This document shows, piece after piece, positions 15,752-34,037 of a DNA stretch of 54,767 bases (its first letter is position 1; every line of letters begins with the position of its first letter). The notes beneath the pieces were generated by a model, which was not told the DNA's origin, did not search any database, and saw only the letters and a list, made by a program, of their open reading frames with translations. A program made the position numbers and the translations under genes. The stretch lies in the IMG/VR virus record IMGVR_UViG_3300025098_000057, positions 1-54,767 of that record; one strand, written 5' to 3'. The DNA is from a virus.

Positions 15752-18700
15752 TTATTGTTTTGTTTTCTTATACATTTTTAAAAACGCTGCATTATTTTGC
15801 GCATTCTTTGTTAAGCTAGTTTGAGCATTGCTGACCCATTTATCATACCACGTACCTGTAGATACCTGACCAGCTTTTTGATCAGACATAGCTTTTCTTT
15901 GAGTTAAATTTACACTTTGTGTTTGATCAGATATATATTTATTACCGTTATTATCCCAAGTATACGGAGTTACAGAACCTATAAGCTCTCCTCTTTGATT
16001 TTTATATATCCTAATATCTCCTCCAGCAGGTATTATCTTTTTATACTGATCATTTTCAGATCTATCAATGTTGTATAATACAGATGAAAAGTTATCTATC
16101 TGAGAATTTGCCATAGGATTGATATCGGAATTCTTAGGGAATGTAAAAATTATTTCATTGTATGCATTTATATCTGCTGATGCAATTTTATGTGGAGATG
16201 CGGAACCTTTACCCTTTGTACTTTTACCTTTCATAACTTCCTTCATCCACTCATTATTTACTTTAACCATATATGCAGCTCCATTTTCTACACCTGTAAC
16301 TTTTGAGTTTGCATGAGGTAAATACTTTATTTCTAAATTAGGAGTTTTACCTTTAGTTTTTGGATCCTTAATAGCTCTTAGAACTGCGGAAGATACATCA
16401 TCTAAAATTTCTTTAGATAATTCTGAACCACCTGCAAATTCTTTAATATCATTTTTAGCACCATCATAAAAATTAACACTATATTCAGATTCAGGACCCT
16501 TAGAATTATACTGTTTAAACATATTTAATGCCATAGTCAAACCAACATCACTTGCTCTAGGCGACATTGGATCAAAAGATCCTTTGTAAATATTAGTCTG
16601 ATAAACATCTCCTACATTCATTTGCTCAGGAGAATAACCTTCCATTGCCATTCTTACATTAAACTTCTCATATATAGGATCTTCTGAATATGGGTTCTCT
16701 GCTCCCCCACTGTTGACTTTTTTAAATTGTTCTAATTGCCCTTTCCAAATATCATAAAATAAATTACCATCTTTTGCTACTTTAGATCTTCTATCACGGT
16801 CTGCACGTATAAAGTCAGGTGCACCAGCAAATATAGTTGGACCCATACCCATCATCCTATTTGCTGTTTGCAATTTTACATCTGTAATAGGTTTAAGCTT
16901 ATTGTTATTCATAGCACCAGGGATAGCCTTAAATTGACTTAAATCAATGTCTGAAGCCCAAGCCTCTAGTTTAGGTAAATATTCTTCAAAACTCATTTCT
17001 ACAGTATTACCATTCTCATCTTCTTTTAAAAACATTGGTATACCTTTTTTGTACATATCTATAAATGGCTTGGCGTCTGCACTGCCTAACTTCAAAAACT
17101 TTTCAAAGTTCTTTGCATTATTAAGATCATTCGCATCAGATATTACAGTAATTCTTTCAATTTCAGAATCTGCATCATTCAAAACTTTTAAAGATTCAAT
17201 AAATGCAGGATCTGCTGACTTACCGGGACCAATAGCTAAACCATCAGCATTTAAATATGCAGTTCCGCTACCATTGCTAGTCTCTGTAACCATTCTCTTT
17301 ATAAACTTAGCTGCCGTATTAGGTTTTTCTAACAATTGCTTTTTAATTTCTTGTAGTGTACCTCTTATACCAGTTTTACCTATATTATAAATATTGTCAT
17401 CACTTGGATTAAACTGAGCATAAATATCTAAAGCAGCATCTACCCCTCTTTCAAGCTGTGTAGATTCCATTTCGCCAATAAGATCCCTATTTTTATCAAA
17501 TAAATCTCCTTCTACATCTCCCATTGTTATTTGTGACCTTGATTGCTCTATTCCACCACCCATTGCCGCATCAAAAGCTGCAGCTATAGCATTCTTTCCG
17601 CCATCTTTTAATGTTTGTTTTTCTTCTTGTAAAAGGGAGTCATACATATACTTCCTTCTTTGTTTTTCAAAATCATGGGCGTAACCAAGATCTCTTGATC
17701 TAACCGTATTTTCTTTTAAAGAAACCTTTTTATGTGTAGCAGCATATTGTGTAGCAGCAGCAAGCAAATCTTTATTCATATTTGTTTGCATTACTATATT
17801 GTATGCTCTATTCAATAAACTATTTACATCTTGAGTATCAAGACCTTTATTATCACCTAATACATTTCTGTTTCTTTTTAGTTTATTTACACTATCTAAG
17901 TAAGCAGCTTCAACATCACTCATTTGCTGCTCTTCTTCAGAACCAGGTATAATACCTTGTTGTTGTTTATATGAATCCCATGATACAAGAACTGATCTTT
18001 CATTTGCAGCTTTCTCAGCAAGCATTACATTTTGAGCAGCAAGTTGCTGTTCATATGCACCTATTGTTTCAGTGGCCCATGCTGCTTGTGCTTGTTTAAC
18101 ATCTGCAAACTGACCAGACTCAATAGCATCTTTAGCAAAATCTCTAGATCTAACATATGTATCTGCATAGTAAGCATTTCTTACTTGAGGATCATCTAGC
18201 AAAGCATTTTGCATATCAAACATAGCTTGCTTAGTAATAAGTTCACCATTTTGTTGTGTTACAACCCAATCAGGATTAGCAGGATCCACATAATCTATTT
18301 CAACATCATAACCTTGAGCTTCTAGATAAGCTTTACCTCTTTGGAATAAATCTGCATCTGGTATGTATTCAGGAAGCGCCATTTGCAAAGCTTCTTGTTC
18401 AGATGCATTTACAAAGTCTTCCATATCATATTCCATCTTTCTAACACCAGTATCCCAATATTGCTCTCTAACAGAAGCATCAGATGAGTTTCTCATCATG
18501 TTTACCTTAGACCTTTCATTTATATATTGTCTAGTTTGAACAAGGTCTTTAACAATCAAATCGTCTTCAAAGAATGGTTTGAATATTGCTCTAGCTGCTT
18601 CTGCATTTTGCATTACAGATAAATCCATTCCAGAAGCTTTTTCTAACTGAGGAGCTAACGTCTCAGCAAATTGATTTCTCATTTCTTGAGTATCACCTCT

Positions 18701-18868
18701 TGATAAGTCGCCATATACAACTTTACTATATAGATCATTTACTGCTTTATAGTTAGTATTATATCTATTAGTTTTTACATCAAGTATATTTGATAAGAAC
18801 TTATAGTCCGGAGTAAACGGTTTGAAGTCCGGCATATATGATTTGACGCCTGGTATATAAGTTGCCAT
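15752..18868 (-). CDS. Putative capsid cargo / internal virion protein (1038 aa)
   Basis: This large, mostly helical protein lies directly upstream of the giant RNA polymerase, with only 2 nt between its stop and the polymerase ATG. Its N-terminus is rich in Pro and aromatic residues (MATYIPGVKSYMPDFKPFTP). A long Glu/Gln/Lys-rich helical region with coiled-coil character covers about residues 40-400, and a mixed alpha/beta C-terminal part follows. I see no catalytic motif, signal peptide or membrane segment. In Crassvirales the very large proteins between the muzzle gene and the polymerase are packaged cargo; that role is inferred from position, size and composition. The ATG at 18868 is preceded by 59 nt of A/T-rich spacer. 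It could instead be a polymerase partner. Confidence 0.62.
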   Translation of the reverse strand: MATYIPGVKSYMPDFKPFTPDYKFLSNILDVKTNRYNTNYKAVNDLYSKVVYGDLSRGDTQEMRNQFAETLAPQLEKASGMDLSVMQNAEAARAIFKPFFEDDLIVKDLVQTRQYINERSKVNMMRNSSDASVREQYWDTGVRKMEYDMEDFVNASEQEALQMALPEYIPDADLFQRGKAYLEAQGYDVEIDYVDPANPDWVVTQQNGELITKQAMFDMQNALLDDPQVRNAYYADTYVRSRDFAKDAIESGQFADVKQAQAAWATETIGAYEQQLAAQNVMLAEKAANERSVLVSWDSYKQQQGIIPGSEEEQQMSDVEAAYLDSVNKLKRNRNVLGDNKGLDTQDVNSLLNRAYNIVMQTNMNKDLLAAATQYAATHKKVSLKENTVRSRDLGYAHDFEKQRRKYMYDSLLQEEKQTLKDGGKNAIAAAFDAAMGGGIEQSRSQITMGDVEGDLFDKNRDLIGEMESTQLERGVDAALDIYAQFNPSDDNIYNIGKTGIRGTLQEIKKQLLEKPNTAAKFIKRMVTETSNGSGTAYLNADGLAIGPGKSADPAFIESLKVLNDADSEIERITVISDANDLNNAKNFEKFLKLGSADAKPFIDMYKKGIPMFLKEDENGNTVEMSFEEYLPKLEAWASDIDLSQFKAIPGAMNNNKLKPITDVKLQTANRMMGMGPTIFAGAPDFIRADRDRRSKVAKDGNLFYDIWKGQLEQFKKVNSGGAENPYSEDPIYEKFNVRMAMEGYSPEQMNVGDVYQTNIYKGSFDPMSPRASDVGLTMALNMFKQYNSKGPESEYSVNFYDGAKNDIKEFAGGSELSKEILDDVSSAVLRAIKDPKTKGKTPNLEIKYLPHANSKVTGVENGAAYMVKVNNEWMKEVMKGKSTKGKGSASPHKIASADINAYNEIIFTFPKNSDINPMANSQIDNFSSVLYNIDRSENDQYKKIIPAGGDIRIYKNQRGELIGSVTPYTWDNNGNKYISDQTQSVNLTQRKAMSDQKAGQVSTGTWYDKWVSNAQTSLTKNAQNNAAFLKMYKKTKQ

Positions 18869-18927
18869 ATTACTAAATTAATAAAATTTATATCATTTTT
18901 AAATTAATGCAAATACACTTTTAATGT

Positions 18928-21702
18928 TTATTTGCCCATCATTCCTACATAAAATGGAACTGCAAGTTTTCTTTTCTTTGTGCTCCCACCTTGTTTCAGA
19001 GTATATGCTCCTGTAGTTGGTTGCATTGGCATTTGATATTGCATCGTTGTACCATAAGGCATAAGACTTGGATTGTTTCTCATTTCTCTCTGAAGATTTG
19101 TTTCTTGAGGAGATAAGCGTCTTTGCTGTTGTTGAGTATACATGTCCATAAAACCTTGCATAACCTCTTGTGAAGGTGCAGTTCCTGTTGTAGCTAATCT
19201 ATTGTATATATCAGTGTAAGGTTTTATAAAATCATACTCTCCTGGTATAGGTGCTGCCTCAAATGCTTTCTTCGAAAACTGACCTATTTGACCACCACTC
19301 AAAGGATTTATCTTATAGTAATCTTGAATTGAGTTCATGTTATATGTATTAGCTCTGTTTGTAGCAGCATTAGCTAATGTATTAGCGTATTGATCATTAT
19401 CAAAGTTTCTTTCATCCATATACATCTGAAGAACCTTTTGAGTATCATCGTATTGTTTAACTTTTCTATCTCTTCTTTCTCTGTTAATTAAACCATCATA
19501 TCTTGCTTGGATAGCGTTACCTCTATTTATAGTAGAAACATTTCTTTGATTTACTCTACCTATCTCATTTGCAATTGCAGTGGCAGCTTTACCTGCAGAT
19601 TGTGCAGTTCTTGCTGCTAATTGTTGAGCTCCGCCAAACATACCCGCAGCTTGAGTTTGAATCCCAAGTTGTTCGTTTATAGCAGCTATAGCTCTTGTAG
19701 GATCTTCTAATACATACTCTAAATCAACACCTTCTACATCCGGTTGATATGGAAGGAATGCTTTTCTCTTTCTATTATTTATAGCATTTAATTGAATTAA
19801 ATCTTGCAACCACCATTCTGCTTCTGGTCTAGCATATGTCGTTTCTAAATTTGAGGCTTCAATTTTCCTTATATCCTTTTCTTCATCAGGCTTTAAAATT
19901 TCCTCTTGTATTTCTATATCATTAGTAAGAGGTTTTAAAGGCGGTGCATTATGTGTATGCATACCATGCTTACCATCAAATCCAGAACCTGAAACATAAT
20001 CATAAAGAGCTGGATTCATAGTTGGAAAATCCTCTTTTAGATTTTTAGCCCAAGCATGCGAACTTAGAAAATCCTCAATAGTTTTATTTTTAAAATATGG
20101 TTGATATACTAAATCATTTGCTTTAGCTATTTCATAATTTTTCTTCTCATAAATCTCTTGGAACTCTCTCCAATGATCTCCTTTACCATCGTAATAATTC
20201 CAACCTTGAATTTCTTTAACCCAAGGGAATCTATTTTCAAATTCATTTTTAGATTCCTCATTAAGATAATCTTTACCAAATGATTTACCTTTTGAACCTT
20301 TAATTGTTCTTTGAAACTCAGGTCTGATTCCTTCATACTGTTCAGTTACATCAGGTCCTAAAATTATATTATTTTCATCCGCAAGAGCCTTAAGATAAGC
20401 TCTAAATCCTTCATCATATATATTAACTTTACCGGTGCTAACTCTTTTACCAGAGTCATCAATATCTCTAATAGTTTGTTCTTGCAATCCTATAGCTGGA
20501 TCTATTTTAGCTTCAATTAATGTTAACAGATCTGGATTATCAGTAACTAATTTACCAGATGAAACTAATTGTTTTAAAGCACTTGCATCATATCTATTTA
20601 CAAGATTAACAAATTCATCTTTATTTATTTCATTACCATTATGGCTATAAGATGAAGTTGCTGTTTTCCACCATTCTTTATCAATTGGAAATGGTATAGC
20701 AGCAATTTGTTCAAAAAGTGGAGTATCATCAGTTTCACTACCATCTTGATAAACTTCTAAGCCATCTCTTGCTATATCTCTATAAGGAACATCGGTTGTA
20801 TCTTGTTCACCCATAGTTTCTGGAGAGACTTCTGATTGCTGAGGCATTGTCATACCAGAATCAATCATTGTTTGTTCAGTTGCTGCATTAGCATTTTGAT
20901 CTACAGCTTGTTGTTCTGCTTGCTGTTGTTCAGCTGCAGCTTGCATTTGCTGCATCAATGCTATTCTTAACTGTTCTTCTTCAGGTAATTGCTCTAATGC
21001 TTCTTGTGCTGCTCTTTGTGCAGTTATTTCTTCAACTTGAGCTGTGAACTGAATTGGATCTATATCTTCTGATATCAAGAATGGATATGCAGCCATAGGC
21101 ACACCATCTCTAAAGTTTTTACCTTCCTCTTGTTTATATGCAAGATGAGAAAGACCTTCCATATTTTTCTTAAGCATCATCTCTGCAGACTTAACCTGAA
21201 TATCATCAGCATAATCATCATTGATTGCACCATAATATTTATTTAGGTCATACTTCTTAGAGACTTTTGCTGGAGTCATTTTCTTTCTAGAGTTTATACC
21301 AAACTCTGTCAAATCATCTTTTGATATCTTAGCTGATTTTGTATCTGAAAAAATAAAAGATTGATCTGGAAGATACATAGGTACACCACCGCTACTATGT
21401 CTAGGGCCTTTTATATCATACAAACCATAATTACCATCTTGATTTAAATCTGTAAGAACAGTTTCGCCACCTTCAGCTTCTAAATTAGCTAGATCTCTTG
21501 GAACATCAGATAGGCTATATCTAACTTCTGTTGAATCATCCTGAGTCATATTAGTACTTCCTGTAAAAGCAACTAAACCATAATCTTTCTGATCACCTGT
21601 TCTTAGTTCATCTGTAGAACCACCATGAGCCATCTTTTCAACAACTTGACCATTTCTTACTTCAAAACCTTCCGGTAAATTATTTATTTTAACTTTTGCC
21701 AT
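18928..21702 (-). CDS. Putative capsid cargo protein with repeated GG motifs (924 aa)
   Basis: The N-terminal 125 residues carry three short double-glycine motifs, AHGGS (27-28), AEGGE (78-79) and SSGGV (105-106), the last followed by PMYLPDQSFIFSDTK. A further QGGSTKKRK lies 20 residues from the C-terminus. The middle contains a Gln/Ala-rich helical stretch (about 235-275) and later a long helical, Arg-rich region (about 690-790). No enzyme motif is evident. The N-terminal pattern looks like a family found in internal proteins of gut crAss-like phages, recalled from memory and not searched. Its ATG is 2 nt downstream of the 851-aa gene stop, so the two are probably co-translated. The double-glycine sites could be protease processing sites or packaging tags; both ideas are inference. 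Confidence 0.62.
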   Translation of the reverse strand: MAKVKINNLPEGFEVRNGQVVEKMAHGGSTDELRTGDQKDYGLVAFTGSTNMTQDDSTEVRYSLSDVPRDLANLEAEGGETVLTDLNQDGNYGLYDIKGPRHSSGGVPMYLPDQSFIFSDTKSAKISKDDLTEFGINSRKKMTPAKVSKKYDLNKYYGAINDDYADDIQVKSAEMMLKKNMEGLSHLAYKQEEGKNFRDGVPMAAYPFLISEDIDPIQFTAQVEEITAQRAAQEALEQLPEEEQLRIALMQQMQAAAEQQQAEQQAVDQNANAATEQTMIDSGMTMPQQSEVSPETMGEQDTTDVPYRDIARDGLEVYQDGSETDDTPLFEQIAAIPFPIDKEWWKTATSSYSHNGNEINKDEFVNLVNRYDASALKQLVSSGKLVTDNPDLLTLIEAKIDPAIGLQEQTIRDIDDSGKRVSTGKVNIYDEGFRAYLKALADENNIILGPDVTEQYEGIRPEFQRTIKGSKGKSFGKDYLNEESKNEFENRFPWVKEIQGWNYYDGKGDHWREFQEIYEKKNYEIAKANDLVYQPYFKNKTIEDFLSSHAWAKNLKEDFPTMNPALYDYVSGSGFDGKHGMHTHNAPPLKPLTNDIEIQEEILKPDEEKDIRKIEASNLETTYARPEAEWWLQDLIQLNAINNRKRKAFLPYQPDVEGVDLEYVLEDPTRAIAAINEQLGIQTQAAGMFGGAQQLAARTAQSAGKAATAIANEIGRVNQRNVSTINRGNAIQARYDGLINRERRDRKVKQYDDTQKVLQMYMDERNFDNDQYANTLANAATNRANTYNMNSIQDYYKINPLSGGQIGQFSKKAFEAAPIPGEYDFIKPYTDIYNRLATTGTAPSQEVMQGFMDMYTQQQQRRLSPQETNLQREMRNNPSLMPYGTTMQYQMPMQPTTGAYTLKQGGSTKKRKLAVPFYVGMMGK

Positions 21703-21704
21703 TC

Positions 21705-24260
21705 TTATAATATTTCTATATCAGCTCCTGCTGCAATTAGTTTTGCAATCACACTAGATGATGCATTTAATGATTCTCCTCCAGATTTAAAATTACCCAT
21801 TAAAGCTTGTGTTCCTGTAGGAGTACTACCTCTTAAAAGATCTGCTCTTAAACCCGTGTTAACATCAGTACCTTGGTCTTCTTCTCTATATGAAACTCCT
21901 TTTCTTTCGGAACTACCTAATGTTTTAAGATCTTCCCTAGCTTGAATAAGTTTAGCATTTTCAGCAAATTGATTAAATATATTAGCACCTTCAACACCAA
22001 TTGTTCCTATGGTACTAGCAACATCACCAAATCTGCCATCTATCATTCTATCTAAGAACTTATTACCCTTAGCATTTATTCTTTCCCCAAGTGTTCCTTT
22101 CTCCTCTCTTCTAAGTGCTCTTTTTTGTTTTCTTGTTAAACCACTCTCATCAACAGTTTCATCAACAGTTTCATCCATAGTTTCATCAACCATCTCATCA
22201 TCTAAACCAGGATAAACTGTCATAGGTCCCATAGGCATACCAGGATCAAAGTTTTCAGCTTCAGGTAATAATGCAGCTAGTTCATCTTCATTAGCTAAAC
22301 CTTCTAGACCATCGTAGTAGTCTTGCATTTTATCCATAGCTCCTGTAGCAAATGCATTTCTAAAAGAGAATGTATCTGCTTGATCTTGTCTAGGTAAACC
22401 TTGAGCTGAAGCAGCTCTTTGGTTTGCAGATACTTGATTTTGAATATCCAAGGTATCAGCCCAATCCATTGTGCCAGCTTCACTAAATTGACTTTGAAGT
22501 TTATTAGTATCAGGATAGCTTTGCATAAATTGTTGTAGTGCGTTGGTAACCTCATCTCCAAACTGATATATGTCTAAAGACTCACCTCCAGTTTTTTGCT
22601 TAGTCCAATCTACATTTATACCTAAATCAGAAGCCCTACCTTTCAACATATCTATATAGTTCTGATACTCAGGTGTTCCTACTTCAGCATCAGTATCATA
22701 ACTTGGTGTAAAAGTAAATTTACTTGGATCTCTATCTTCCTTAGAAAGCCAGCTTTCAACCTGATTTGTTAATCTTTTCCTATTTACATTTCCTGAGTCT
22801 GCTGGTATTCCTACATCAAAACCTTTAAGAGGAAAATCTTCAATATTATCAGTCATTGTACCTTGATCATACATATATGTATATTTAAGATCTGGTGTAT
22901 TAGCTGCTTTTTTACTAGCCTTTAATTGTTTATTATAGTCTTTATTTTCTCTTCTTGCTTCCCAATCTATAATTGGTTGATATTTACCTGGAGATACACC
23001 TAACATCATTTCTTGTTGTGGTGTAAGCGTGCCTTTTTCTTGCTTCACTCTAGCAATTGAAACACCCGTTTTTGGAAAATCAACCGGACCATTAAACTCA
23101 CCTTGATCTTGATACTCATCTAGCCCTAACGTATTTTGATTTCTAGGATCTGCCATTGCTGCAATAAAAGGATTTAAACCACCAGATATTTCATCATCAT
23201 TAACATCTGGTCTAAGCTCATTATATAAATTTACAGCTTGAATAAAATCCACAGGTGATTTAGAATCTCTACTATCTATAAAGACGTCATCTACATCTGA
23301 TGATTGATTTTGATTACGTAAAGTATTTAAACCCATCATTGTATCATATAGATAAGGATTATCTCCCATATCCATATATGAGGATTCCACTCCTTCAGGA
23401 CTAATACCATAACTTGTACCTTCAGGTATATCACCTGACTGTAAACCTTTTCTATAATCAAGCAATGCCTGAGCAGAAGGTTTATTTTTAGAAAATCTTT
23501 TAACAAAATCTTCAAGTGTTATGTCGGACTGAGCTGCATTTTCTAAATATGCATCTCTTACTTTTTTATTTTTACTTAAATATCTTTCCGGATCTCTTGA
23601 TAAAAGATTTATATCATATTCACCTGTTGCAGCATCAAAATCAATAGTAGAGTATTTAGCAAGATCTTTTGCTAATTGCTTTTCATTTCTTCTATCTTTC
23701 CCAAATCTATCTTTATTGATATTTTTTTTAGCTTTTCTATCTCTAAAAACACCATCCATTAAACCATCACCATCTCTATCTTTACCACCAAATAAACTAC
23801 CAACAGCTGTAGATACAAATGGTAAAAGACTAACGGGGCTATTTCTTGAAAATAAATTCATAGGTAAAAACCGACTGTAAGGATCTGCATAATAATCACT
23901 TCCTTCTACACCTCTCATAAACTGATCGGCAGTTCTATAAGATGATGATCCACCAAATTGTTGTTGAGGTAAATCATCAACACTACCCTGTACTTTTTCA
24001 ACTTGTTGAGAGGCTTGCTGCTGTTGCTGTTGTAAAGATGAAAATGCAGTTGTTATATCATCTCCTGTATAACCAACATTCATTAAAAGACCTGTAATTG
24101 TATCAGTCTCATAGCCTTCATTAGCTAAAGTAACTATTACATCTTCTACACTAGAACCCATATTAAGCATAGTCTGAACATCAGATACTAGTCCGGCATC
24201 CATAGAAGATTGATCCATTCCGTTTTGTAAACTTTTTTTATTTAAACCTTTTCTTGCCAT
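21705..24260 (-). CDS. Putative capsid cargo protein (851 aa) with UBA-like repeats and a Ca-binding-like loop
   Basis: The first 80 residues contain two similar three-helix-like repeats (about 31-50 and 57-76; MLNMGSSVEDVIVTLANEGY is the first), loosely like UBA/CUE folds, followed by a Gln-rich run. Residues 161-169 (DRDGDGLMD) match the DxDxDGxxD loop of calcium-binding repeats. Double-glycine motifs occur at 103-104 (FGGSSS), near 558 (TGGESLD) and at 827-828 (SGGESLN), the last 25 residues from the end. Tandem DET units give an acidic stretch near residue 690-705. It follows the 1407-aa gene after 52 nt that hold a TTTTGTATATTA element. Function is unknown; cargo status is inferred from context. 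Confidence 0.6.
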   Translation of the reverse strand: MARKGLNKKSLQNGMDQSSMDAGLVSDVQTMLNMGSSVEDVIVTLANEGYETDTITGLLMNVGYTGDDITTAFSSLQQQQQQASQQVEKVQGSVDDLPQQQFGGSSSYRTADQFMRGVEGSDYYADPYSRFLPMNLFSRNSPVSLLPFVSTAVGSLFGGKDRDGDGLMDGVFRDRKAKKNINKDRFGKDRRNEKQLAKDLAKYSTIDFDAATGEYDINLLSRDPERYLSKNKKVRDAYLENAAQSDITLEDFVKRFSKNKPSAQALLDYRKGLQSGDIPEGTSYGISPEGVESSYMDMGDNPYLYDTMMGLNTLRNQNQSSDVDDVFIDSRDSKSPVDFIQAVNLYNELRPDVNDDEISGGLNPFIAAMADPRNQNTLGLDEYQDQGEFNGPVDFPKTGVSIARVKQEKGTLTPQQEMMLGVSPGKYQPIIDWEARRENKDYNKQLKASKKAANTPDLKYTYMYDQGTMTDNIEDFPLKGFDVGIPADSGNVNRKRLTNQVESWLSKEDRDPSKFTFTPSYDTDAEVGTPEYQNYIDMLKGRASDLGINVDWTKQKTGGESLDIYQFGDEVTNALQQFMQSYPDTNKLQSQFSEAGTMDWADTLDIQNQVSANQRAASAQGLPRQDQADTFSFRNAFATGAMDKMQDYYDGLEGLANEDELAALLPEAENFDPGMPMGPMTVYPGLDDEMVDETMDETVDETVDESGLTRKQKRALRREEKGTLGERINAKGNKFLDRMIDGRFGDVASTIGTIGVEGANIFNQFAENAKLIQAREDLKTLGSSERKGVSYREEDQGTDVNTGLRADLLRGSTPTGTQALMGNFKSGGESLNASSSVIAKLIAAGADIEIL
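22147..22194 (-). repeat. 12-nt tandem repeat encoding DET(V/M) units
   Basis: Four 12-nt units on the plus strand (two exact tcatcaacagtt, then tcatccatagtt and tcatcaaccatc) encode repeated VDET/MDET tetrapeptides in the acidic linker of the 851-aa protein. This looks like a slippage-prone microsatellite. Confidence 0.85.
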
Positions 24261-24312: not shown

Positions 24313-27300
24313 CTATGACTTTATAACATTAGTCATTATGTAGTTAGGTATACTCATACCTGACTCCTTAGCTTCTTTATAATGAACTCTATTTAGTTTA
24401 TCATATATACCCTCCGCTCTTATGTAATCTTTACTACCATCATAAACACCATTGATAAAATCTGAATAAACTTTATAAAGATCTGTTTCACCACCATCTT
24501 CATTATAGTATTTATCTACAAGAAACTTAACAGCTTCATTATTTTTAAGGACATTATCTCTTAAATCAGTAATCCTTTTCCCATACAAAAGTTTTTCTTT
24601 CATATTGATACCCTCTTCTGTTAATGGTACTCCATAGATATAATCCATTGGGTAACCATGATAATCTTCTTCTGTATCAGGATAAACCATACCTAAACCA
24701 TTATAAGCTTGAATTTTATATAACTCTGAAAGATTGTCGTAATCAATATCTTCATCATTACGCAAATCATCTTGTTTATTTTTAAAAAGGTATATATAAT
24801 CTTCAGGCATTGCCTCTGGTGAAGGATCTTTAACATGACCTAAATTATTATCTTTTTTTCCCAACAAAGTTTCTTGTAATGCTATTGCAAGCATTGTATA
24901 AGGATCTTGTTCAGCATTTTTAGAAGTTCTTATTATATCTTCTGCAACATCTCTGCTATATCTTCCTCCAAATAAGTCTCTAGTTGGAACTATAGGTTGA
25001 CCTGAAGCTGCATTAATTTTTCTATTATCCCCTAAATAAAATGTGTCGCCATAATAACCTATAGATGTTTTATCAGGATCTTCATTTTTAACTTCCGGTT
25101 TAAAAAGTCTAGCTTCAGCTTCTTCATTAAGTCTAGCTTGTTCAGCTTCTAATGCGGCTTGCTCTTGTGTTTTACCTTCAATCATATTACCAATCCGTGA
25201 TTTTATATTTAAAGGATCTACTAGATTTGTTTCTATACCAGGTTGAGCTTTTGGCATTAGCTTATTTAACTTTGAATCATATGTATATTTACCAGAAGAA
25301 ACTTTTTTAGTAAGCCATTTACCATATCTTGAATTTGGATTTATATTACCTAAGTTTAATTCTTCTCCTCCATCTTGTAACCATCTAGGATGTCTTGCCC
25401 ATTCATTAACCTCTATAGGCTTAGGTTCTTTTTTAGGTTTAGGTTCTTTTTCAGGCTTAGGTTTTCTTTCTCTTACTGATATCTCTTCATCTAATTCATC
25501 AGGTGTTCTACCTCTTCTTCTATTAAACTTAATATCATCTAAGGGAACTCTTACACCTAATTTAACATTAAATTTATGTTGAGGCTTGAATGTATTTTCT
25601 ATTTCAGATGCAATGACAGTACCTGTACCATCATTAATACCCGTCTCTTGATTTACACCACTCTCATATGAATAAGTATTTCCAGTTTCTTGAGAAATGG
25701 AACCTGTATTACGACCAAGTAAATCTGCATTATAAGCAGCCTCACCAAAAACAGTTCCCGGAAACCATTTTGCTTTTGGTTTCCACTCACCTCTTGCAGA
25801 AGCACCATATCCCCAGTCCATCTCAAAATTATGTTTAGCGGGTTCAAAATCCATATTTTCCGAAGCTATAGAAGTACCTGCAGTAGTATTTGACAAAACA
25901 TTACTTCCATCATAACTTTGATTTGTTATACTTTGAGGATCCCATCCAGCACCAATTCTAAGATTAAAAGGTTGAACATCAAATCTTGCCCGCCCTCTTT
26001 TTAGTTCTCTATTAGGTTTACTACCAAAATGAAAATTTGGACCTGCTGAAAGATTTAGTCCAGTATAACCTTTATCATAAAACAAATCACCATCAATTCT
26101 TGCATCAAACCTTGCACCTCTACTAGTTTTGTTCAAATAAGGAGAAAAATATCTAGCATTTAAACCTCCTGTAAAACCTTCTTTATCTCCTCCAGCTTCT
26201 ATAGCTGTATCTAAAAATCCTTTTTTAGGACTTCCCATAACTGTATTAAATGTAAATTTAGGCGTCCAACTTTTAGCTGTTGGATTTAATTTACTATATG
26301 GTTGAAAACCTATGGAGGTATTATCAAAGTTTCTTAAAAATCTTCTTAAACCATCACCTGGTCCATAAGCACCACCGGGAGCATAACTATCAAGTTCTGC
26401 TTTTGGTAGTTGTTCTCCACCATCTCGGTTTTCTGGCATGGCAACACCTAATGCGCCTAGTTCATTAAGAGCATTAGCCGCATACCATTCAGGACTATGT
26501 TGTAATCTTTGAGCAAATCGTTTTTGTTTATTGCTTCCAGTGTTAGACCCTGAATTAAAACCTTCTAGATTAAGATCATTATATATTATTCTAACTAACT
26601 CATCTGTATCGCCCATCTTATCTTCACCTTTATGAGCTGCTTGATAAGCTACTCTATCTAAAAAGTCTTGAGATGGCTTATAGCTTTTATTACCTGTAAA
26701 GTATGATTCTCTTGGAAACTTTTTAGCAAGCTTTTGTTCCTTAAAACTTTCTTTTACAAAAGGTTTTAACTCATTACGTATCTGATCGTATCTAGGATCA
26801 TCTTTAGTTAATTCAACAGTACTCCTTCTTTCCTTATAACCAAATCTATCAGGCCGTTTTGACATATCGGGATATATAGGAAAAACTAAATCTAAAGGTC
26901 TATCTATAGAATTTTTAAAAGTGTCTGACTTTACAGATCTTCTTCCTTCTCCTAGTAAACTTTTAAATTCACCTTTATCTTGAAACCTTGGAACAAATCC
27001 TTCTGGATAAAGTTGTTCCTTTTCTATAGGCTTATTATAGAATCCAGCTTTTATTTTTTTGGGTGTTCTATAGTATTGAGAATTTCTACTTGGCTTATCA
27101 TTAAAAAATTCTGGAAGTTTATACTTAAAAAATGTTTTTAACTTAGCATTTTTTTGAGCTTTGTCTTCTGACCATATACCAAACTTTCTTTCATAATCTA
27201 TACCCTCTACCTCATCTCTTTCTTCAAGTTCTTCTGGTAGAGATGCATCTACAGTAAGTTCAGGTTTAATAATAGGCATAGGATCTACATAGTCTGCAAA

Positions 27301-28536
27301 GGCGGGTCTCTCTAAAACTTCTGGTGGATTATATTCTTCTTTAAAATATCTTCCAATAGGTTTGACCCACTTACCATCTTCATTTGGATCAGGTTTTGTT
27401 CGCCAGTTTCCTTTATCATCTAGTCCCCAGGCAAATTTATTTTGAGTCATCCAATACAAATCATTCCATGAAATATCTTCTGGCTCAATTCCTAAAGTAT
27501 TAACTAAATACTCAGCTTGTTTTTTATGACCATCCTCAAATGCATATTTACCTCTTACTTCTTGCATTAAACCATTTGCATCTTTTTCTACAGCCTTTTG
27601 ATATTTTTTATAAGCTTCCTCATGCTCTTTTTTTCTTTTATTATAATCCTCGTCATAAGCTTCTTTAGCCGCTAGTGAATCTTTGTAAGCTTGCATAGAA
27701 TCTTCATATTCAGGTTCTGGTGGAGGAAGTAATCTATTACTTGGAAGATCATTAGGATCTGGATTCTCACCATACTCTTTATAATACTCAGCAGCATACT
27801 CAAAATCTTCAAATGTAGGATATTTATCTTTGTCTACAGTTTCATAAGCTTCTTTCATTGTAGGCTTAGTAGGATAAGTTGGTTTGACATACATAGGCTC
27901 CAGTGGAAAACTATCAGTAGTAGTAAATGTAAAAGGTTTAACATTAAACTTTTCTGTCATATCAAATGTTTTATCCAAAACTTCATCAATACCACGCCAA
28001 TGATCCATATATTCATCAATAGTTAACCCACCTACCCAATCAGCTGGCACCGAATGGCCTTGATTATAAACCCACTTTCCATAATTAGTTTTTGATTTAG
28101 GATCGTAATTTTTTAATTGCCTAGCTAACTGTTTATCATAACGCTCCCCAGAAAAACCTATATAATTATCTTTTGCCCAATTATATGCAGCTAAACTATC
28201 TTTATATGCTGCCAGCTTTTGAGCATACGTTAAAGGTGGATCATGTGGTCCACCGTGTTCAAACATTGGAATCTCAAATACTTGATCTCCTTGGAATTTA
28301 TACTCTCCTCCAGGATACATTATTTGTTTATTACCAAGGTTATCTATACCCATTATTGGAAACTCTACATCCTTCATAGATATATTTGGAGAATTTATAA
28401 TATTAAATAGATTGTCTACATCAGGGCTATCTTTTCTATAACCTTCTGTTGAAAATACACCTGTTACATATGTAAACATTTCATTAGGGCCACCTGGTAA
28501 CCCTCTTCTCTCCATATTTGTAAACTTCTTTTTCAT
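24313..28536 (-). CDS. Putative ejected cargo protein: beta-barrel-like region, Lys/Pro spacer and transglycosylase-like domain (1407 aa)
   Basis: Residues 1-100 contain PGGE (76-78) and EHGGP (95-96) motifs. Residues 100-320 are helical with the duplicated segment AYKDSLAA (110-117 and 283-290). Residues about 754-997 show alternating, Gly/aromatic-rich strand patterns (GYTGLNLSAGPNFHFG, GYGASARGEW, HKFNVKLGVRV) like an outer-membrane barrel. A KPKPEKEPKPKKEPKP spacer follows (about 1021-1040). Residues about 1137-1380 resemble a lysozyme-like/SLT fold: PYTMLAIALQETLLG with candidate catalytic E1222, then NNLG and IQAYNGLG. I infer a peptidoglycan-cleaving, envelope-penetrating cargo protein. 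Its ATG overlaps the muzzle stop by 1 nt (TAATG). The stop is TAG, with an in-frame TAA two codons later. Confidence 0.6.
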   Translation of the reverse strand: MKKKFTNMERRGLPGGPNEMFTYVTGVFSTEGYRKDSPDVDNLFNIINSPNISMKDVEFPIMGIDNLGNKQIMYPGGEYKFQGDQVFEIPMFEHGGPHDPPLTYAQKLAAYKDSLAAYNWAKDNYIGFSGERYDKQLARQLKNYDPKSKTNYGKWVYNQGHSVPADWVGGLTIDEYMDHWRGIDEVLDKTFDMTEKFNVKPFTFTTTDSFPLEPMYVKPTYPTKPTMKEAYETVDKDKYPTFEDFEYAAEYYKEYGENPDPNDLPSNRLLPPPEPEYEDSMQAYKDSLAAKEAYDEDYNKRKKEHEEAYKKYQKAVEKDANGLMQEVRGKYAFEDGHKKQAEYLVNTLGIEPEDISWNDLYWMTQNKFAWGLDDKGNWRTKPDPNEDGKWVKPIGRYFKEEYNPPEVLERPAFADYVDPMPIIKPELTVDASLPEELEERDEVEGIDYERKFGIWSEDKAQKNAKLKTFFKYKLPEFFNDKPSRNSQYYRTPKKIKAGFYNKPIEKEQLYPEGFVPRFQDKGEFKSLLGEGRRSVKSDTFKNSIDRPLDLVFPIYPDMSKRPDRFGYKERRSTVELTKDDPRYDQIRNELKPFVKESFKEQKLAKKFPRESYFTGNKSYKPSQDFLDRVAYQAAHKGEDKMGDTDELVRIIYNDLNLEGFNSGSNTGSNKQKRFAQRLQHSPEWYAANALNELGALGVAMPENRDGGEQLPKAELDSYAPGGAYGPGDGLRRFLRNFDNTSIGFQPYSKLNPTAKSWTPKFTFNTVMGSPKKGFLDTAIEAGGDKEGFTGGLNARYFSPYLNKTSRGARFDARIDGDLFYDKGYTGLNLSAGPNFHFGSKPNRELKRGRARFDVQPFNLRIGAGWDPQSITNQSYDGSNVLSNTTAGTSIASENMDFEPAKHNFEMDWGYGASARGEWKPKAKWFPGTVFGEAAYNADLLGRNTGSISQETGNTYSYESGVNQETGINDGTGTVIASEIENTFKPQHKFNVKLGVRVPLDDIKFNRRRGRTPDELDEEISVRERKPKPEKEPKPKKEPKPIEVNEWARHPRWLQDGGEELNLGNINPNSRYGKWLTKKVSSGKYTYDSKLNKLMPKAQPGIETNLVDPLNIKSRIGNMIEGKTQEQAALEAEQARLNEEAEARLFKPEVKNEDPDKTSIGYYGDTFYLGDNRKINAASGQPIVPTRDLFGGRYSRDVAEDIIRTSKNAEQDPYTMLAIALQETLLGKKDNNLGHVKDPSPEAMPEDYIYLFKNKQDDLRNDEDIDYDNLSELYKIQAYNGLGMVYPDTEEDYHGYPMDYIYGVPLTEEGINMKEKLLYGKRITDLRDNVLKNNEAVKFLVDKYYNEDGGETDLYKVYSDFINGVYDGSKDYIRAEGIYDKLNRVHYKEAKESGMSIPNYIMTNVIKS
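25417..25475 (-). repeat. Degenerate repeat encoding a Lys/Pro/Glu spacer
   Basis: Near-identical copies of ttaggttctttttnaggt on the plus strand encode a KPKPEKEPKPKK-type stretch between the barrel-like and transglycosylase-like parts of the 1407-aa protein. Such sequences form stiff, extended spacers. Confidence 0.75.
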
Positions 28537-31500
28537 TATCTATATGATAGGTTTAATTTGGCATTATTAAGTTTTAATAACATCTTTCTGTTATTTGATT
28601 GTCTTCTTCTTAGAATAAGTTTATTATAATAATGTCTAAACTTTTTTCTTTGAGTTTCTGACTTTTGATAATCAATATTAATAGCATTAAGATCTCTTAT
28701 GTAACCATTCAGCTCTGTTATAAATATCTGTTGTTCAGAGTTTGTAAATTCACCTCTATCATTTGTTGCATCAAAAAATTGATTGAATCTATACTTCTGC
28801 TCTTCTTTAGAATAGAGTATTTGAATATCATTTGCATTTATAATTGGATATGTTAATGCATTAATAGGATCTTCTTTAGGATCTAAATCTAATCTTAACA
28901 AACCAGAAACTTGTTCTGTATTATAAATAATCGCCTCATCAAAATTAAAATCTAAATCATGCCATCTATCATCACCACAACCATTAAATAAATCACCTTT
29001 ATATACATAGCTTTCTAACTGGTATTCTACACTTCTCAATGTATTTACCATTTGACCTGTAGCTTCAGTGAATTCAATTTCCCAAGGATAATCAACCCCA
29101 TAGTAATTTGAATATAGATCGCATCTATAATTGTGTCTCCAAATACCACCTGTTATATAATTTGGTGCTTCGCTTATTTGAGCTATATAGTTACATCTTA
29201 ATGGATTAAAATTAACATAGTTAGGATCACCATTTGGCCCTGCTAAATACACATCATCACATTCGCCTGACTGAACAACAGTTGCACCAGGTAATCCTGA
29301 AGGTGGGCAATTACAAACTATCTTTCTGCATATAGGGGGATTATCTTCTTTGCATGCTCCTTCTGGTAATGTATAACCATTATCATTATTTGGATAAACC
29401 AATGTGTATCCCGGAGGACAGTTACATTCACCTTCTACTATTGTACTTGGTAATTCCAAAGGTGTAACAACTGCTAATTGAGTTTCTCTTTGTGTAGATT
29501 CACAACGACCAGTTGTAGGATTATATACAGAACCAGGTGGACAGTAAGGCTCTTCTGATTCAGTTGTTTTAGTTGTTAAAAAATGATTTACACTTGGTAA
29601 TAACAATTCAGGATGCCAATCATGAAATGATATCCAAGCTTTAGCTTTTGGATCATAACTTACAGTCCAAGAACAGTCCTCAAAGTATCTAGGATCTCCT
29701 ATTGTTAATTTAATACCACCTAGAAGCTTAGATTCAACTTCGTTTCCTCCAACTTGACCTAATGTATAAAATCCATCTTCAGGTCTAAACTCAACATTAT
29801 CTACAAACTCTTCTCTTAACTGAAAATCTTTTTTGCAGAAGTATACAACATCATCGCTAATATCATATATAACCTGACAACCTACACCTATAACAGGGTT
29901 ATCTCCAAGCTCATCTGATTCTAATTCTGGAAATTGTCTAATCAATCTTGATGGTAAATATTTATTAAACCACCATTTCATTCCTTGATTAGATATAGGT
30001 AAAATGCTTTGACCACTTTGCTGGAATATCTTACCCTGTGCTTGTGATATAAAAAAGAATCCATAAGGTGTATTAATTACACCTCTTTGACTTTCACAAG
30101 ATCCATACTCATTTGATAAATCTGAATTTACTAAGTTTTGAAATGGCTGACTAAATAAACCACCATCACCTATTGTAATTTTTGTACCAGCATCAGTCGT
30201 TGTTAATGAATCAACACCTTGAAACATTTGAGGAGACTGGTATGGGAAAAATATAATAGCACCACTCTTATTTATTGGCTTAATTATATTTACTTCATTT
30301 TTAAAATCCCTATAGTTGTTTGTTAGATATACTCTCCAAAAATCTCTCTTAGACTCTAACTGAGCTTGTAGTGAATATATTAAACGCTTGGGATAATATG
30401 AATAACATTTCTCTGCTACTATAGGATCATAGTCTGTAGGTTGTATAGATCCATTTGTTGTAAGATTTGTTAAAAATCTACTTGTACTTAATGAGAAGTC
30501 ATACTTGTAGAAGTTATCCTTTTTAATTATTTCAGAATTAAATAGATCATCTACATTTGTATATCGTTCTTCATCATAATATCTTTTAGCTGGATCATCA
30601 TCCCAATCTCTATAAGCTAAATTAATTTCAGATTCAACAGGAAAGTTTAATATACCGTTTACGTGTGTATACATAAAACCATACCTCATAGCAAATAGAC
30701 TATTACCAGCTTTACTACCCAAAAGGGAAGAAAATCCAGCAGCACATGTATTTGAACCTCTATCTAAATAAAATAAATCATTTGGAAGAGGTGTTTCTTC
30801 GCTATCACCAAGTCCAAATGACGTAAGCATACTTACTAAATTACTAATATCATATTGCCTTGTGTCCATCCAAAATCTAGGATAAGGAATGTTCACTCTT
30901 TGTAGGTAGTTGTATGGGTATTGATCAGGTTGTCCAAGTAAGAAGTCATTAAATATTGGCATAATAACTTTCTCACTATATTTACCAATGAATGTATCTC
31001 CTGAAAATATTGGAGTAGTTTGATAAAGAACTTCACCTGGTGCTAATGGATCAACATCATAAACGCAACCATTCATTGGCGTTTGTTTAATGTTTCTTAG
31101 TTGCCCATATTGATTTTCAAAGTTAAATTTTAAAGCTCCATAGTTCATGGAAATATCTCTAACCTGTAAGTTTTCAGGAGATTGAATATACGAATTTCCA
31201 AAATCAAACTCAGAATCTCCACCAACAGTAAATCTTGATCTATCTATAACACCGCTAATATTAGTTGGTAATGGTAATTCATTTCCAGTTCTTACAACAA
31301 TAGTATCAGGTCTATATAAGTTGTTTATTTTAAAATTACTAACACCTTGTTCTCCGCTTGAAAACCCCTTTATTGCACTTCCAACATAATCTTGATTTAA
31401 GACTTTACTTCTAAAAATATCACCACCATTACCTAAATGAAATGTGTCTAGTTCTCCAACAGAATTATATTTCCAAGCAAAATCTTGAAAGCTTATAGTG

Positions 31501-34037
31501 TTATAAATAAGATCTATTATCTTTTGAGCACCTATTGTTATATTAGTTTGTGCTAATTGTACACCTGTAAAAAGCCTAACAAACAAAGGTACTTCGCTTG
31601 TATCTTCTGTATTCTGAAAATTAAAATCATAACCACCACCCTGAAGTCCAAAAAGCGACCCTTTAGCTGTAGAAGCTCCACCTTGAACTGTTAGTAAAAG
31701 ATCTGATACAAGACCTCCTACAAATAAATCTGCAACTGATGCAGCATCATTAATAGCTGTTTCTAAAAGTTCATCTGTAATAGCAGAAACAACACTTGTT
31801 GCTGGAACTGCAGCTATATATGGACTAAAACCTGGAAAATTTGTACCAGCTGGACCAGCAAATATAGGCGGCAATGGTATATTAGAAGATGCACCTCTAA
31901 CCGTTTTATTTTTTCTACCTCTAATTGCAGCAATAGCATAACCTATACCAATTAAACCTGCTACAATTACAGCTGCATTTCTTAAAAGTTTATTTTGAGG
32001 ATGCTTTTCTGATACTTTAAAAGATCCCTCTGATTTACCAGATACCGCACCATATAATCTTAATTCTGCAGCATTGAGAAAAGGTCTTCTAAACATTAAT
32101 TCCGGAGAATGAAATGTAAAAATATCTTTTTTAAATTTTGTTAATGGCGGAAAGTTTGTTCTAGATGATGTAAAGCTATTTTCACAACCATCTGTTCTTG
32201 GAACATAATCCGGAGCCCAAGGTAAATAATCAAAGTTTGTAAAATCACCTGTACCATCATGATGATATATATCAGATCTTAAATCATTATATGGGTAATT
32301 TGGATATAAGCCTTCAGTTACACCGCCTAATAATTCATTTTGATCTCCAATGTTTGGTATATCATATGCTCTCATGTTTCTTAAAACACCTTTAGCAAGT
32401 ATTGATTTATTACCTTCTCTTGAACCTCTTAGTATTTCATAGCCAACTATATTTGGTATTATAGTACCATCATTAAATTTAGGTCTTTTAATGTTACTAA
32501 ACTCAACACCTAATATTCTAATCTTTGTACCAGCATCTCCAGATAACTGCAAACTTGAATCTAGTTCTTCTGAAGGCATTTTGTGATGTCTAATATATTT
32601 ACCACAAAGATCTCCCCATATCTCAGGCTGTGTAGCAGGATACTTTTCTGTAGATTGCCAATATGCCATTTCACCTTTAGATAATAGCAAACCTTCACCA
32701 TCTTCAGTTGGAGTGTTTATATTACTATTAGATATGGTTGCTGTATTATAAACTTGAAAGTTTAACTCATCTGATGATATACTATTTAAACCAGCAGGAC
32801 CTGTCTCATTTATATTAGCATTTTGATCAAACTGAGTAGCTCCATTAAACTTTGGTGCCCTTCCCGGTATATGGTATGATGCAGACTTTTCTCCCGTATT
32901 GTATATCCAACGTATAAAAAATGCATATTGCTCATCTCTTAAAAATCCAACCTTATTACCACCATTCTTATAATAAGTAGATGGATATTCGGCTACAGTC
33001 CAATGTGCTTTTATTTCATTTGCAATTGGTTGATAGTTAAAATCAAACTGTTCAGTTGGACCCTGCCTAATAAGCCAATCATTAACAACATACATTGATT
33101 CTGATTTTTCATAAGCAGGTGATCTTAAAAATAATTGAACAAGATCTACAGATACAGTTGATTGATCAATAAAGTCTATGGATATAATTGTTTGTTCAGT
33201 ACTATATATACCTATCTTCTTTGCAACTTTTTGACCTTGGTTATCAGAAAGTATTACAAGTTCATAAAATTCAAAATCTTTATCTAAGTTTGAAACTTCA
33301 ATGTCTAAAGATCCACCATTTATCTGATGCTCAAATAAACCTTGTATATTAGATACGCCAATATAATCTGTAACTTTTTGTTCATTAACAACATATGCTA
33401 CATATGCTTGATAACTACCATTTCTCAACTGACCACCATCTTGAGCTTTAGTAAGTTTTACACAAGGAGTTGTTAATAAAGGTGCAAGTCTTATTTTTTC
33501 ACAATCTAAATCTGTAGTGTCTTCATATATAGCACAATCAGATCCGGGAGGAGTTACCTCAACTTGAACATATGGTATATTATCAATATTAATAGTTCTA
33601 GATGGATTATTACCATCATCAAAGTATACCTGCCAAGTACAATCAAAGTTTTCTTTCATTGCGCCTGTTATAAGATATGTTCTATTAAAACTTAAGCATT
33701 TATCATTTATCAATGTAGTATACTCACACTTGCTATCATCAAATAAACCTATTTCTGAATTAACATCATCTGTAGAAAAAATAACCCATTGATCAGCAAC
33801 CTTGTGTATTGCACCTATAACAGTATAAGGAATTTTAGCACATAAAAGATTTGCTGGCTCATTACCTAGTACACCAACATCACCATCTACAGAATTGTTA
33901 GCTGCATTTCTAGCATGCGTCCAATTTGTTTTAGGTGTTAAAGATTCATTAAGATCTTTATACATCCCTTTTGAGAAAGCATTAGTCTCAATAGATGATG
34001 TACTTTGAACACCTCTTCTTCTTCTTCTTTTTGCCAT
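28536..34037 (-). CDS. Muzzle-type tail protein (crAss 'stabilization protein' family), 1833 aa
   Basis: The N-terminus is an Arg run (RRRRR at 4-8) followed by NAFSKGMYKDLNESLTPKTNW and THARNAANNS..GDVGVLGNEPANLL, which I recognise as typical of the crAss tail protein known as muzzle or stabilization protein; this comes from memory, not a search. Most of the protein is beta-rich. A hydrophobic helix (about 684-706, NAAVIVAGLIGIGYAIAAI) with flanking Arg/Lys looks membrane-capable. Residues about 1497-1583 form a Cys-rich insertion with three CPPG/CPPS repeats. The C-terminus is helical and basic. It lies 2 nt after the 301-aa ring-type gene and overlaps the 1407-aa gene by 1 nt. Expected role: it forms the tail end through which DNA and cargo leave. 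Confidence 0.72.
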   Translation of the reverse strand: MAKRRRRRGVQSTSSIETNAFSKGMYKDLNESLTPKTNWTHARNAANNSVDGDVGVLGNEPANLLCAKIPYTVIGAIHKVADQWVIFSTDDVNSEIGLFDDSKCEYTTLINDKCLSFNRTYLITGAMKENFDCTWQVYFDDGNNPSRTINIDNIPYVQVEVTPPGSDCAIYEDTTDLDCEKIRLAPLLTTPCVKLTKAQDGGQLRNGSYQAYVAYVVNEQKVTDYIGVSNIQGLFEHQINGGSLDIEVSNLDKDFEFYELVILSDNQGQKVAKKIGIYSTEQTIISIDFIDQSTVSVDLVQLFLRSPAYEKSESMYVVNDWLIRQGPTEQFDFNYQPIANEIKAHWTVAEYPSTYYKNGGNKVGFLRDEQYAFFIRWIYNTGEKSASYHIPGRAPKFNGATQFDQNANINETGPAGLNSISSDELNFQVYNTATISNSNINTPTEDGEGLLLSKGEMAYWQSTEKYPATQPEIWGDLCGKYIRHHKMPSEELDSSLQLSGDAGTKIRILGVEFSNIKRPKFNDGTIIPNIVGYEILRGSREGNKSILAKGVLRNMRAYDIPNIGDQNELLGGVTEGLYPNYPYNDLRSDIYHHDGTGDFTNFDYLPWAPDYVPRTDGCENSFTSSRTNFPPLTKFKKDIFTFHSPELMFRRPFLNAAELRLYGAVSGKSEGSFKVSEKHPQNKLLRNAAVIVAGLIGIGYAIAAIRGRKNKTVRGASSNIPLPPIFAGPAGTNFPGFSPYIAAVPATSVVSAITDELLETAINDAASVADLFVGGLVSDLLLTVQGGASTAKGSLFGLQGGGYDFNFQNTEDTSEVPLFVRLFTGVQLAQTNITIGAQKIIDLIYNTISFQDFAWKYNSVGELDTFHLGNGGDIFRSKVLNQDYVGSAIKGFSSGEQGVSNFKINNLYRPDTIVVRTGNELPLPTNISGVIDRSRFTVGGDSEFDFGNSYIQSPENLQVRDISMNYGALKFNFENQYGQLRNIKQTPMNGCVYDVDPLAPGEVLYQTTPIFSGDTFIGKYSEKVIMPIFNDFLLGQPDQYPYNYLQRVNIPYPRFWMDTRQYDISNLVSMLTSFGLGDSEETPLPNDLFYLDRGSNTCAAGFSSLLGSKAGNSLFAMRYGFMYTHVNGILNFPVESEINLAYRDWDDDPAKRYYDEERYTNVDDLFNSEIIKKDNFYKYDFSLSTSRFLTNLTTNGSIQPTDYDPIVAEKCYSYYPKRLIYSLQAQLESKRDFWRVYLTNNYRDFKNEVNIIKPINKSGAIIFFPYQSPQMFQGVDSLTTTDAGTKITIGDGGLFSQPFQNLVNSDLSNEYGSCESQRGVINTPYGFFFISQAQGKIFQQSGQSILPISNQGMKWWFNKYLPSRLIRQFPELESDELGDNPVIGVGCQVIYDISDDVVYFCKKDFQLREEFVDNVEFRPEDGFYTLGQVGGNEVESKLLGGIKLTIGDPRYFEDCSWTVSYDPKAKAWISFHDWHPELLLPSVNHFLTTKTTESEEPYCPPGSVYNPTTGRCESTQRETQLAVVTPLELPSTIVEGECNCPPGYTLVYPNNDNGYTLPEGACKEDNPPICRKIVCNCPPSGLPGATVVQSGECDDVYLAGPNGDPNYVNFNPLRCNYIAQISEAPNYITGGIWRHNYRCDLYSNYYGVDYPWEIEFTEATGQMVNTLRSVEYQLESYVYKGDLFNGCGDDRWHDLDFNFDEAIIYNTEQVSGLLRLDLDPKEDPINALTYPIINANDIQILYSKEEQKYRFNQFFDATNDRGEFTNSEQQIFITELNGYIRDLNAINIDYQKSETQRKKFRHYYNKLILRRRQSNNRKMLLKLNNAKLNLSYR

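Follow-up and report, generated by a model that had tools for sequence, protein, structure and literature searches.

The window analysed here is the whole of a 54.8-kb virus record from an uncultured, environmental crAss-like phage, an assignment carried by its portal, major capsid protein and muzzle, all of which match virus families. The minus strand encodes a muzzle protein of 1833 aa (gp44-like; 28536..34037; match to phrog_37948/15100), with relatives in 80 IMG/VR contigs and also in Leptolyngbya phage Lbo-JY46 and human-gut phage csAssE-Sib, at ~26% identity. Directly 3′ of the muzzle gene lies the gene called here cargo-A (24313..28536, minus strand), whose ATG start shares one base with the muzzle stop; the 1407-aa frame proposed in the first-pass annotation is open throughout, without interruption. 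The same strand then carries cargo-B (851 aa; 21705..24260), whose C-terminus is constant as well and whose homologue in the related contigs L073 and L095 bears a lysozyme domain. Next come a 924-aa gene (18928..21702), tentatively homologous to the phicrAss001 cargo protein C1 (gp45) and to the C-terminal portion of phi4:1 gp040, and a 1038-aa gene (15752..18868) that, by position, occupies the slot of cargo C2 (gp46). A giant ORF of at least 5249 aa (3..15749, minus strand) is a candidate virion RNA polymerase fusion with one DFDID motif. Because the left end of the window is this one giant open ORF, the idea that it uses a different genetic code was rejected.

The 1407-aa protein begins with a constant N-cap (residues 1–98; 28243..28536), delimited by alignment and profile matches and having the consensus ..GLPGGPNE..SPD..N..NIIPSG.ITM..VDFPV.G.DNLGN..M.PG..Y.FPGD.V.E.PM. 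It is followed by a charged interior with no detectable relative (residues 100–740; 26317..28239), within which lies a Gly-rich linker with DGGEQLPKAEL (residues 706–735; 26332..26421). A strand-rich, alternating region resembling an outer-membrane barrel, defined by alternation scores (residues 767–999; 25540..26238), precedes a Lys/Pro/Glu spacer (residues 1022–1040; 25417..25473). The lysozyme-superfamily domain (residues 1165–1345; 24502..25044), placed by alignment, AF2 model and structural matches, contains the candidate catalytic glutamate E1222 (codon 24871..24873). A constant C-cap (residues 1346–1407; 24316..24501; consensus GGE..YK.YI.G..D...YDKLNR.HYK.AK..GMS.PNYIMT) closes the protein; all these features are read from the minus strand. 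GG motifs of the kind noted in the first-pass annotation stand at residues 76–77, 95–96, 708–709, 1056–1057 and 1348–1349, and LPKA/MPKAQ motifs adjoin some of these sites. No transmembrane helix as in gp45 was found in the 1407-aa protein, whose top 19-residue Kyte-Doolittle mean is 0.54. The Lys/Pro spacer had been likened to periplasm-spanning linkers, but the run (1022–1040, RERKPKPEKEPKPKKEPKP) has only 19 residues, ~60 Å when fully extended, and is therefore too short to span the periplasm alone. About 165 residues separate the last strand (~999) from the lysozyme fold (~1165).

The whole 1407-aa protein, used as query, gave no match in IMG/VR and no tblastn match in phages, and the family was traced through the muzzle by comparing the genes that follow it across related contigs. 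Their products agree over the ~100 residues at the start and the ~60 at the end, with hardly anything in common in the middle. Profiles were built for both ends, and a locus was counted as testable where the muzzle was present with at least 300 bases after it. By this measure, a gene with the N-cap stands directly after the muzzle in 74 of 74 testable loci, and the same C-cap ends 57 of the 58 complete, unsplit N-cap proteins. Both caps occur in 57 distinct proteins, the N-cap at the start in 56 and the C-cap at the very end in all 57, around interiors of 248–2131 aa (median 1200); at the N-cap border, 49 of these proteins have Gly-rich motifs, and at the C-cap border 50 do. Among the 13 N-cap ORFs that lack a C-cap, 11 reach the contig end, one (L064) is complete with no C-cap detected, and one (L075) is broken into a pair of adjacent genes with one cap each. 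The family, its synteny with the muzzle and its caps are established by this analysis.

Interior blocks are common to subsets of the members, which points to exchange. Pfam modules recognised in the interiors of 55 members comprise LysM (17), SLT (14), PG_binding_1 (11) and YkuD (9) and, more rarely, SET (3), ART-PolyVal (2) and GH24 (1); several short relatives carry no convincing Pfam module. Of 64 members, 18 contain HExxH motifs, 22 in all, which is 17 times the rate of other ORFs on the same contigs. One enzyme domain is recognised in the 1407-aa protein, whereas relatives combine SLT, YkuD, HExxH and ART. In architecture, the cargo-A family is an assortment of modules framed by constant ends rather than a conserved trans-envelope device. 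The first-pass annotation had described a dedicated device consisting of barrel, spacer and lysozyme in fixed order; this claim is weakened, since the barrel-like signal is clear in this protein alone among the relatives and the lysozyme domain is mobile, and the existence of relatives with other interiors means that the barrel–linker–lysozyme order is no fixed design.

Residues 1165–1347 match a segment of the neighbouring ORF in L073 (2e-44); as that ORF is the homologue of the 851-aa gene in the window, the lysozyme domain has moved from one cargo gene to its neighbour or the other way. By pattern scan the domain was found in 34 contigs, both in stand-alone proteins of ~240 aa and in large ones encoded close to muzzle or C1-like genes, so it is not exclusive to cargo; a search for it in genome contigs returned none. 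The homologues were aligned apart from the C-caps, because MAFFT stacks unrelated helices if the two are joined. In the resulting 12-sequence alignment E1222, QxxNGxG and YGKRxxDLR are invariant, and the glutamate singled out in the first-pass annotation is thus present in 12 of 12 sequences.

The AF2 model of the domain reached a pLDDT of 80.5 and a pTM of 0.79. Foldseek returned weak E-values for it (best 0.079 in the PDB) with top matches of one kind, and VIA placed MltF at the top (Z 8.2, rmsd 4.0, 134 residues), with g-type lysozyme at Z 7.7 (rmsd 4.1, 134 residues). The best 50 VIA rows all belong to enzymes of the lysozyme superfamily or to proteins that contain a domain of this kind; Slt is among the structural matches, and a T7 core-protein chain is among the VIA matches listed (Z 4.7). 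A Z of ~8 is middling by itself, near the level reachable by unrelated folds. It is the uniform match list together with the invariant glutamate, rather than Z alone, that supports a lysozyme-superfamily fold for residues 1165–1345, and the C-terminal lysozyme-like fold expected from the first-pass annotation is found in the model. The Pfam Glucosaminidase profile matches homologues of the domain at up to 4.9e-4. The domain is likely a peptidoglycan glycosidase (GH23/LT-like), with E1222 as its likely catalytic acid. A plain endolysin is unlikely given the caps, the position and the size of the protein.

The family is linked to virions through relatives. The N-cap profile matches gp040 of Cellulophaga phage phi4:1 (3.8e-17), which is recorded as an MS/MS-detected virion protein and encoded two genes after the muzzle, and, in Lbo-JY46, the gene that follows the muzzle (1.4e-12), which has a weak transglycosylase match of its own. 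The cargo role, assumed at the outset, now has support from homology and synteny in relatives. The 924-aa gene aligns with the C-terminal part of phi4:1 gp040 (hhalign 1.6e-6) and weakly with the portal-bound part of phicrAss001 gp45 (0.064; 0.017 once phi4:1 was added); the 1407-aa protein gave no sequence match to a five-member gp45 profile (hhalign E 0.74). On these alignments, C1 probably corresponds to the 924-aa gene, which would make the 1407-aa protein a further cargo protein. The alternative that the 1407-aa protein is C1 itself was rejected, the 924-aa gene being the better fit. In phi4:1 the N-cap heads a C1-like protein and not a lysozyme-bearing one, so that we infer the role of the cap.

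Comparison with characterized systems yields partial parallels. In the parts of the phicrAss001 structural work drawn on here (PMC10172136), C1 is threaded N-first through the tail and proposed to exit before the DNA, a channel is proposed, and no peptidoglycan hydrolase is reported in gp45/gp46. The window resembles that phage in the gene block after the muzzle, the large cargo-type proteins and the Gly-rich segments, but differs in that C1 more likely corresponds to the 924-aa gene. In phage T7, gp14 goes to the outer membrane, gp15 spans the periplasm, and gp16, with its transglycosylase, reaches the wall and the inner membrane; hydrolase domains are swapped between gp16 and gp15 homologues (PMC8954989), much as between cargo-A and cargo-B. 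The T7 proteins are ejected internal proteins, as is proposed for cargo-A, but the T7 ejectosome has no common caps and its outer-membrane pore is helical, and constant ends around an exchanged interior are undescribed there (PMC8954989). Polyvalent proteins (Iyer et al. 2017, PMC5512222) are likewise of large size, injected by phages and built from several domains, among them lysozyme, ART and zincin peptidase domains, but the cargo-A family is set apart by constant ends around a variable part, by its synteny with the muzzle and by the dominance of cell-wall modules. The phi4:1 gp040 protein, detected in virions, shares the N-cap with the family, yet its N-cap is fused to a C1-like protein and a C-cap match is absent. 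There are thus precedents for ejection proteins that carry cell-wall enzymes, for the swapping of hydrolase domains and for polyvalent proteins (PMC8954989, PMC5512222). In the literature searched, whose coverage took in few subscription journals, no description was found of a crAss-like protein that is linked to the muzzle and has constant ends around an exchanged interior directed at the wall.

Alternating hydrophobic/polar 9-mers in residues 740–1030 exceed shuffles (z 2.9 and 5.2 at two thresholds), with strong segments at 788, 810, 847, 858, 900 and 988, and the score of residues 781–1040 was reached by none of 1301 background windows from other phage ORFs of related contigs, muzzle proteins included. 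The alternating strands of the ~240-residue region described in the first-pass annotation are therefore exceptional and compatible with an outer-membrane barrel; the closed barrel of that description gained no such backing, with a single-sequence AF2 pLDDT of 31 and no homologue in three viral-contig scans or by tblastn at E 1. It is quite possible that the region forms a soluble β domain (sandwich, roll or glycan-binding) and that the lysozyme alone acts on the envelope: phage β domains are mostly soluble, and the barrel-like signal is clear in this protein only among the cargo-A relatives, although these face the same task. Such a domain sits less easily with an alternation that tops every background window, the muzzle proteins among them. 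A transmembrane β-barrel that inserts in the host outer membrane, as part of a barrel–linker–lysozyme injector, would account for this alternation, which is comparable to that of OmpA and OmpX, and the order of its parts suits N-first ejection. We nevertheless consider it doubtful: the same index misses OmpF, no barrel family was found in Pfam at E ≤ 1, and the PDB gave no meaningful match, even if missing family similarity weighs little where barrel families diverge widely. In addition, an unfolded arrival from outside would bypass the usual chaperone route, and T7 gp14 and DEV gp73, known phage proteins that form outer-membrane pores, are helical (PMC8954989, PMC10925440). Rather unlikely, too, is the fuller picture of an ejection protein with its own outer-membrane β-barrel, tethered by a linker to a peptidoglycan-cutting domain, as one of the exchangeable payloads that constant caps frame in a general crAss-like delivery chassis.

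Two further readings concern the place where the protein works. As its gene touches the muzzle gene and tail-associated lysins are common, it might be a lysin on the tail surface or associated with the muzzle, one that remains part of the particle instead of being ejected; this is improbable, since the linked genes resemble those for cargo proteins and an RNA polymerase, phi4:1 has the N-cap at the head of a C1-like protein, and the ART, SET and HExxH modules of relatives make little sense extracellularly. These same modules, the last of them zincin-like, would suit a polyvalent effector acting mainly in the cytoplasm after injection with the lysozyme as a mere entry aid, and lysozyme domains are known in polyvalent proteins (PMC5512222). 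Such an effector is nonetheless unlikely, because LysM, SLT, YkuD and PG-binding modules prevail in the family and Pfam recognised no cytoplasmic-effector domain in the 1407-aa protein.

We favour, as the probable explanation, that the 1407-aa ORF encodes an ejected, modular, peptidoglycan-breaching virion cargo protein with constant caps and an exchangeable cassette. The caps may hold the protein in the tail and portal machinery, or address it through them, while the interior would be a cassette of exchangeable, mostly envelope-directed modules, consisting in this virus of the strand-rich domain followed by the lysozyme-superfamily glycosidase. From phicrAss001 and T7 we infer that, at infection, the protein would be extruded via the muzzle ahead of the DNA, by analogy in the order N-cap, strand-rich domain, linker, lysozyme domain and C-cap. 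It may then refold in the envelope and make an opening in the peptidoglycan for a conduit formed by other cargo proteins; the strand-rich domain, for its part, might become lodged in the outer membrane. This order of extrusion fits an outer membrane that lies before the peptidoglycan.

The route of crAss-like phages through the cell wall is not established, and the family described here puts modules that act on peptidoglycan in a gene invariably located after the muzzle. The presence of wall modules between constant ends in this gene opens the question to tests in relatives that are in culture, Cellulophaga phage phi4:1 among them. It may also be that the constant caps tag proteins for loading into, or delivery from, these very common virions, and cargo-A may show how crAss-like viruses cross the bacterial envelope.

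Zincin-like HExxH motifs are found in 18 of the 64 capped proteins, a family comprising cargo-A and its relatives (examples are encoded on viral contigs L037, L040, L043, L060 and L073). This represents a 17-fold excess over background, and several capped proteins possess two such motifs each. On another contig, L075, the single capped protein is replaced by two adjacent genes (16134–22770), one carrying the N-cap and the other the C-cap.

The neighbouring gene (21705–24260, minus strand) encodes the 851-aa cargo-B, a member of a family in which, as in the capped proteins, the C-terminal end is constant (LAKLIAAGADIEIL) and the interior varies. On contigs L073 and L095, the lysozyme domain is carried by a member of this family. 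A stand-alone form of the cargo-A lysozyme family, approximately 240 aa long, is common in other viral contigs (L096–L128); these proteins produce weak Pfam matches only.

The linkers QxGG and LPKAQxG recur where modules meet, both in the capped family and in the neighbouring cargo genes, and PKAQ is about five times more common in these proteins than in other ORFs. The linkers may represent cleavage sites or loading tags.

The left end of the window is occupied by a giant ORF (3–15749, minus strand), a single open frame of at least 5249 aa that continues past the contig edge. In the comparison phage phicrAss001, gp47, gp49 and gp50 are encoded by separate genes, whereas here one giant ORF may stand in their place. 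It contains a DFDID motif at approximately residue 4125 and is a candidate virion RNA polymerase fusion.
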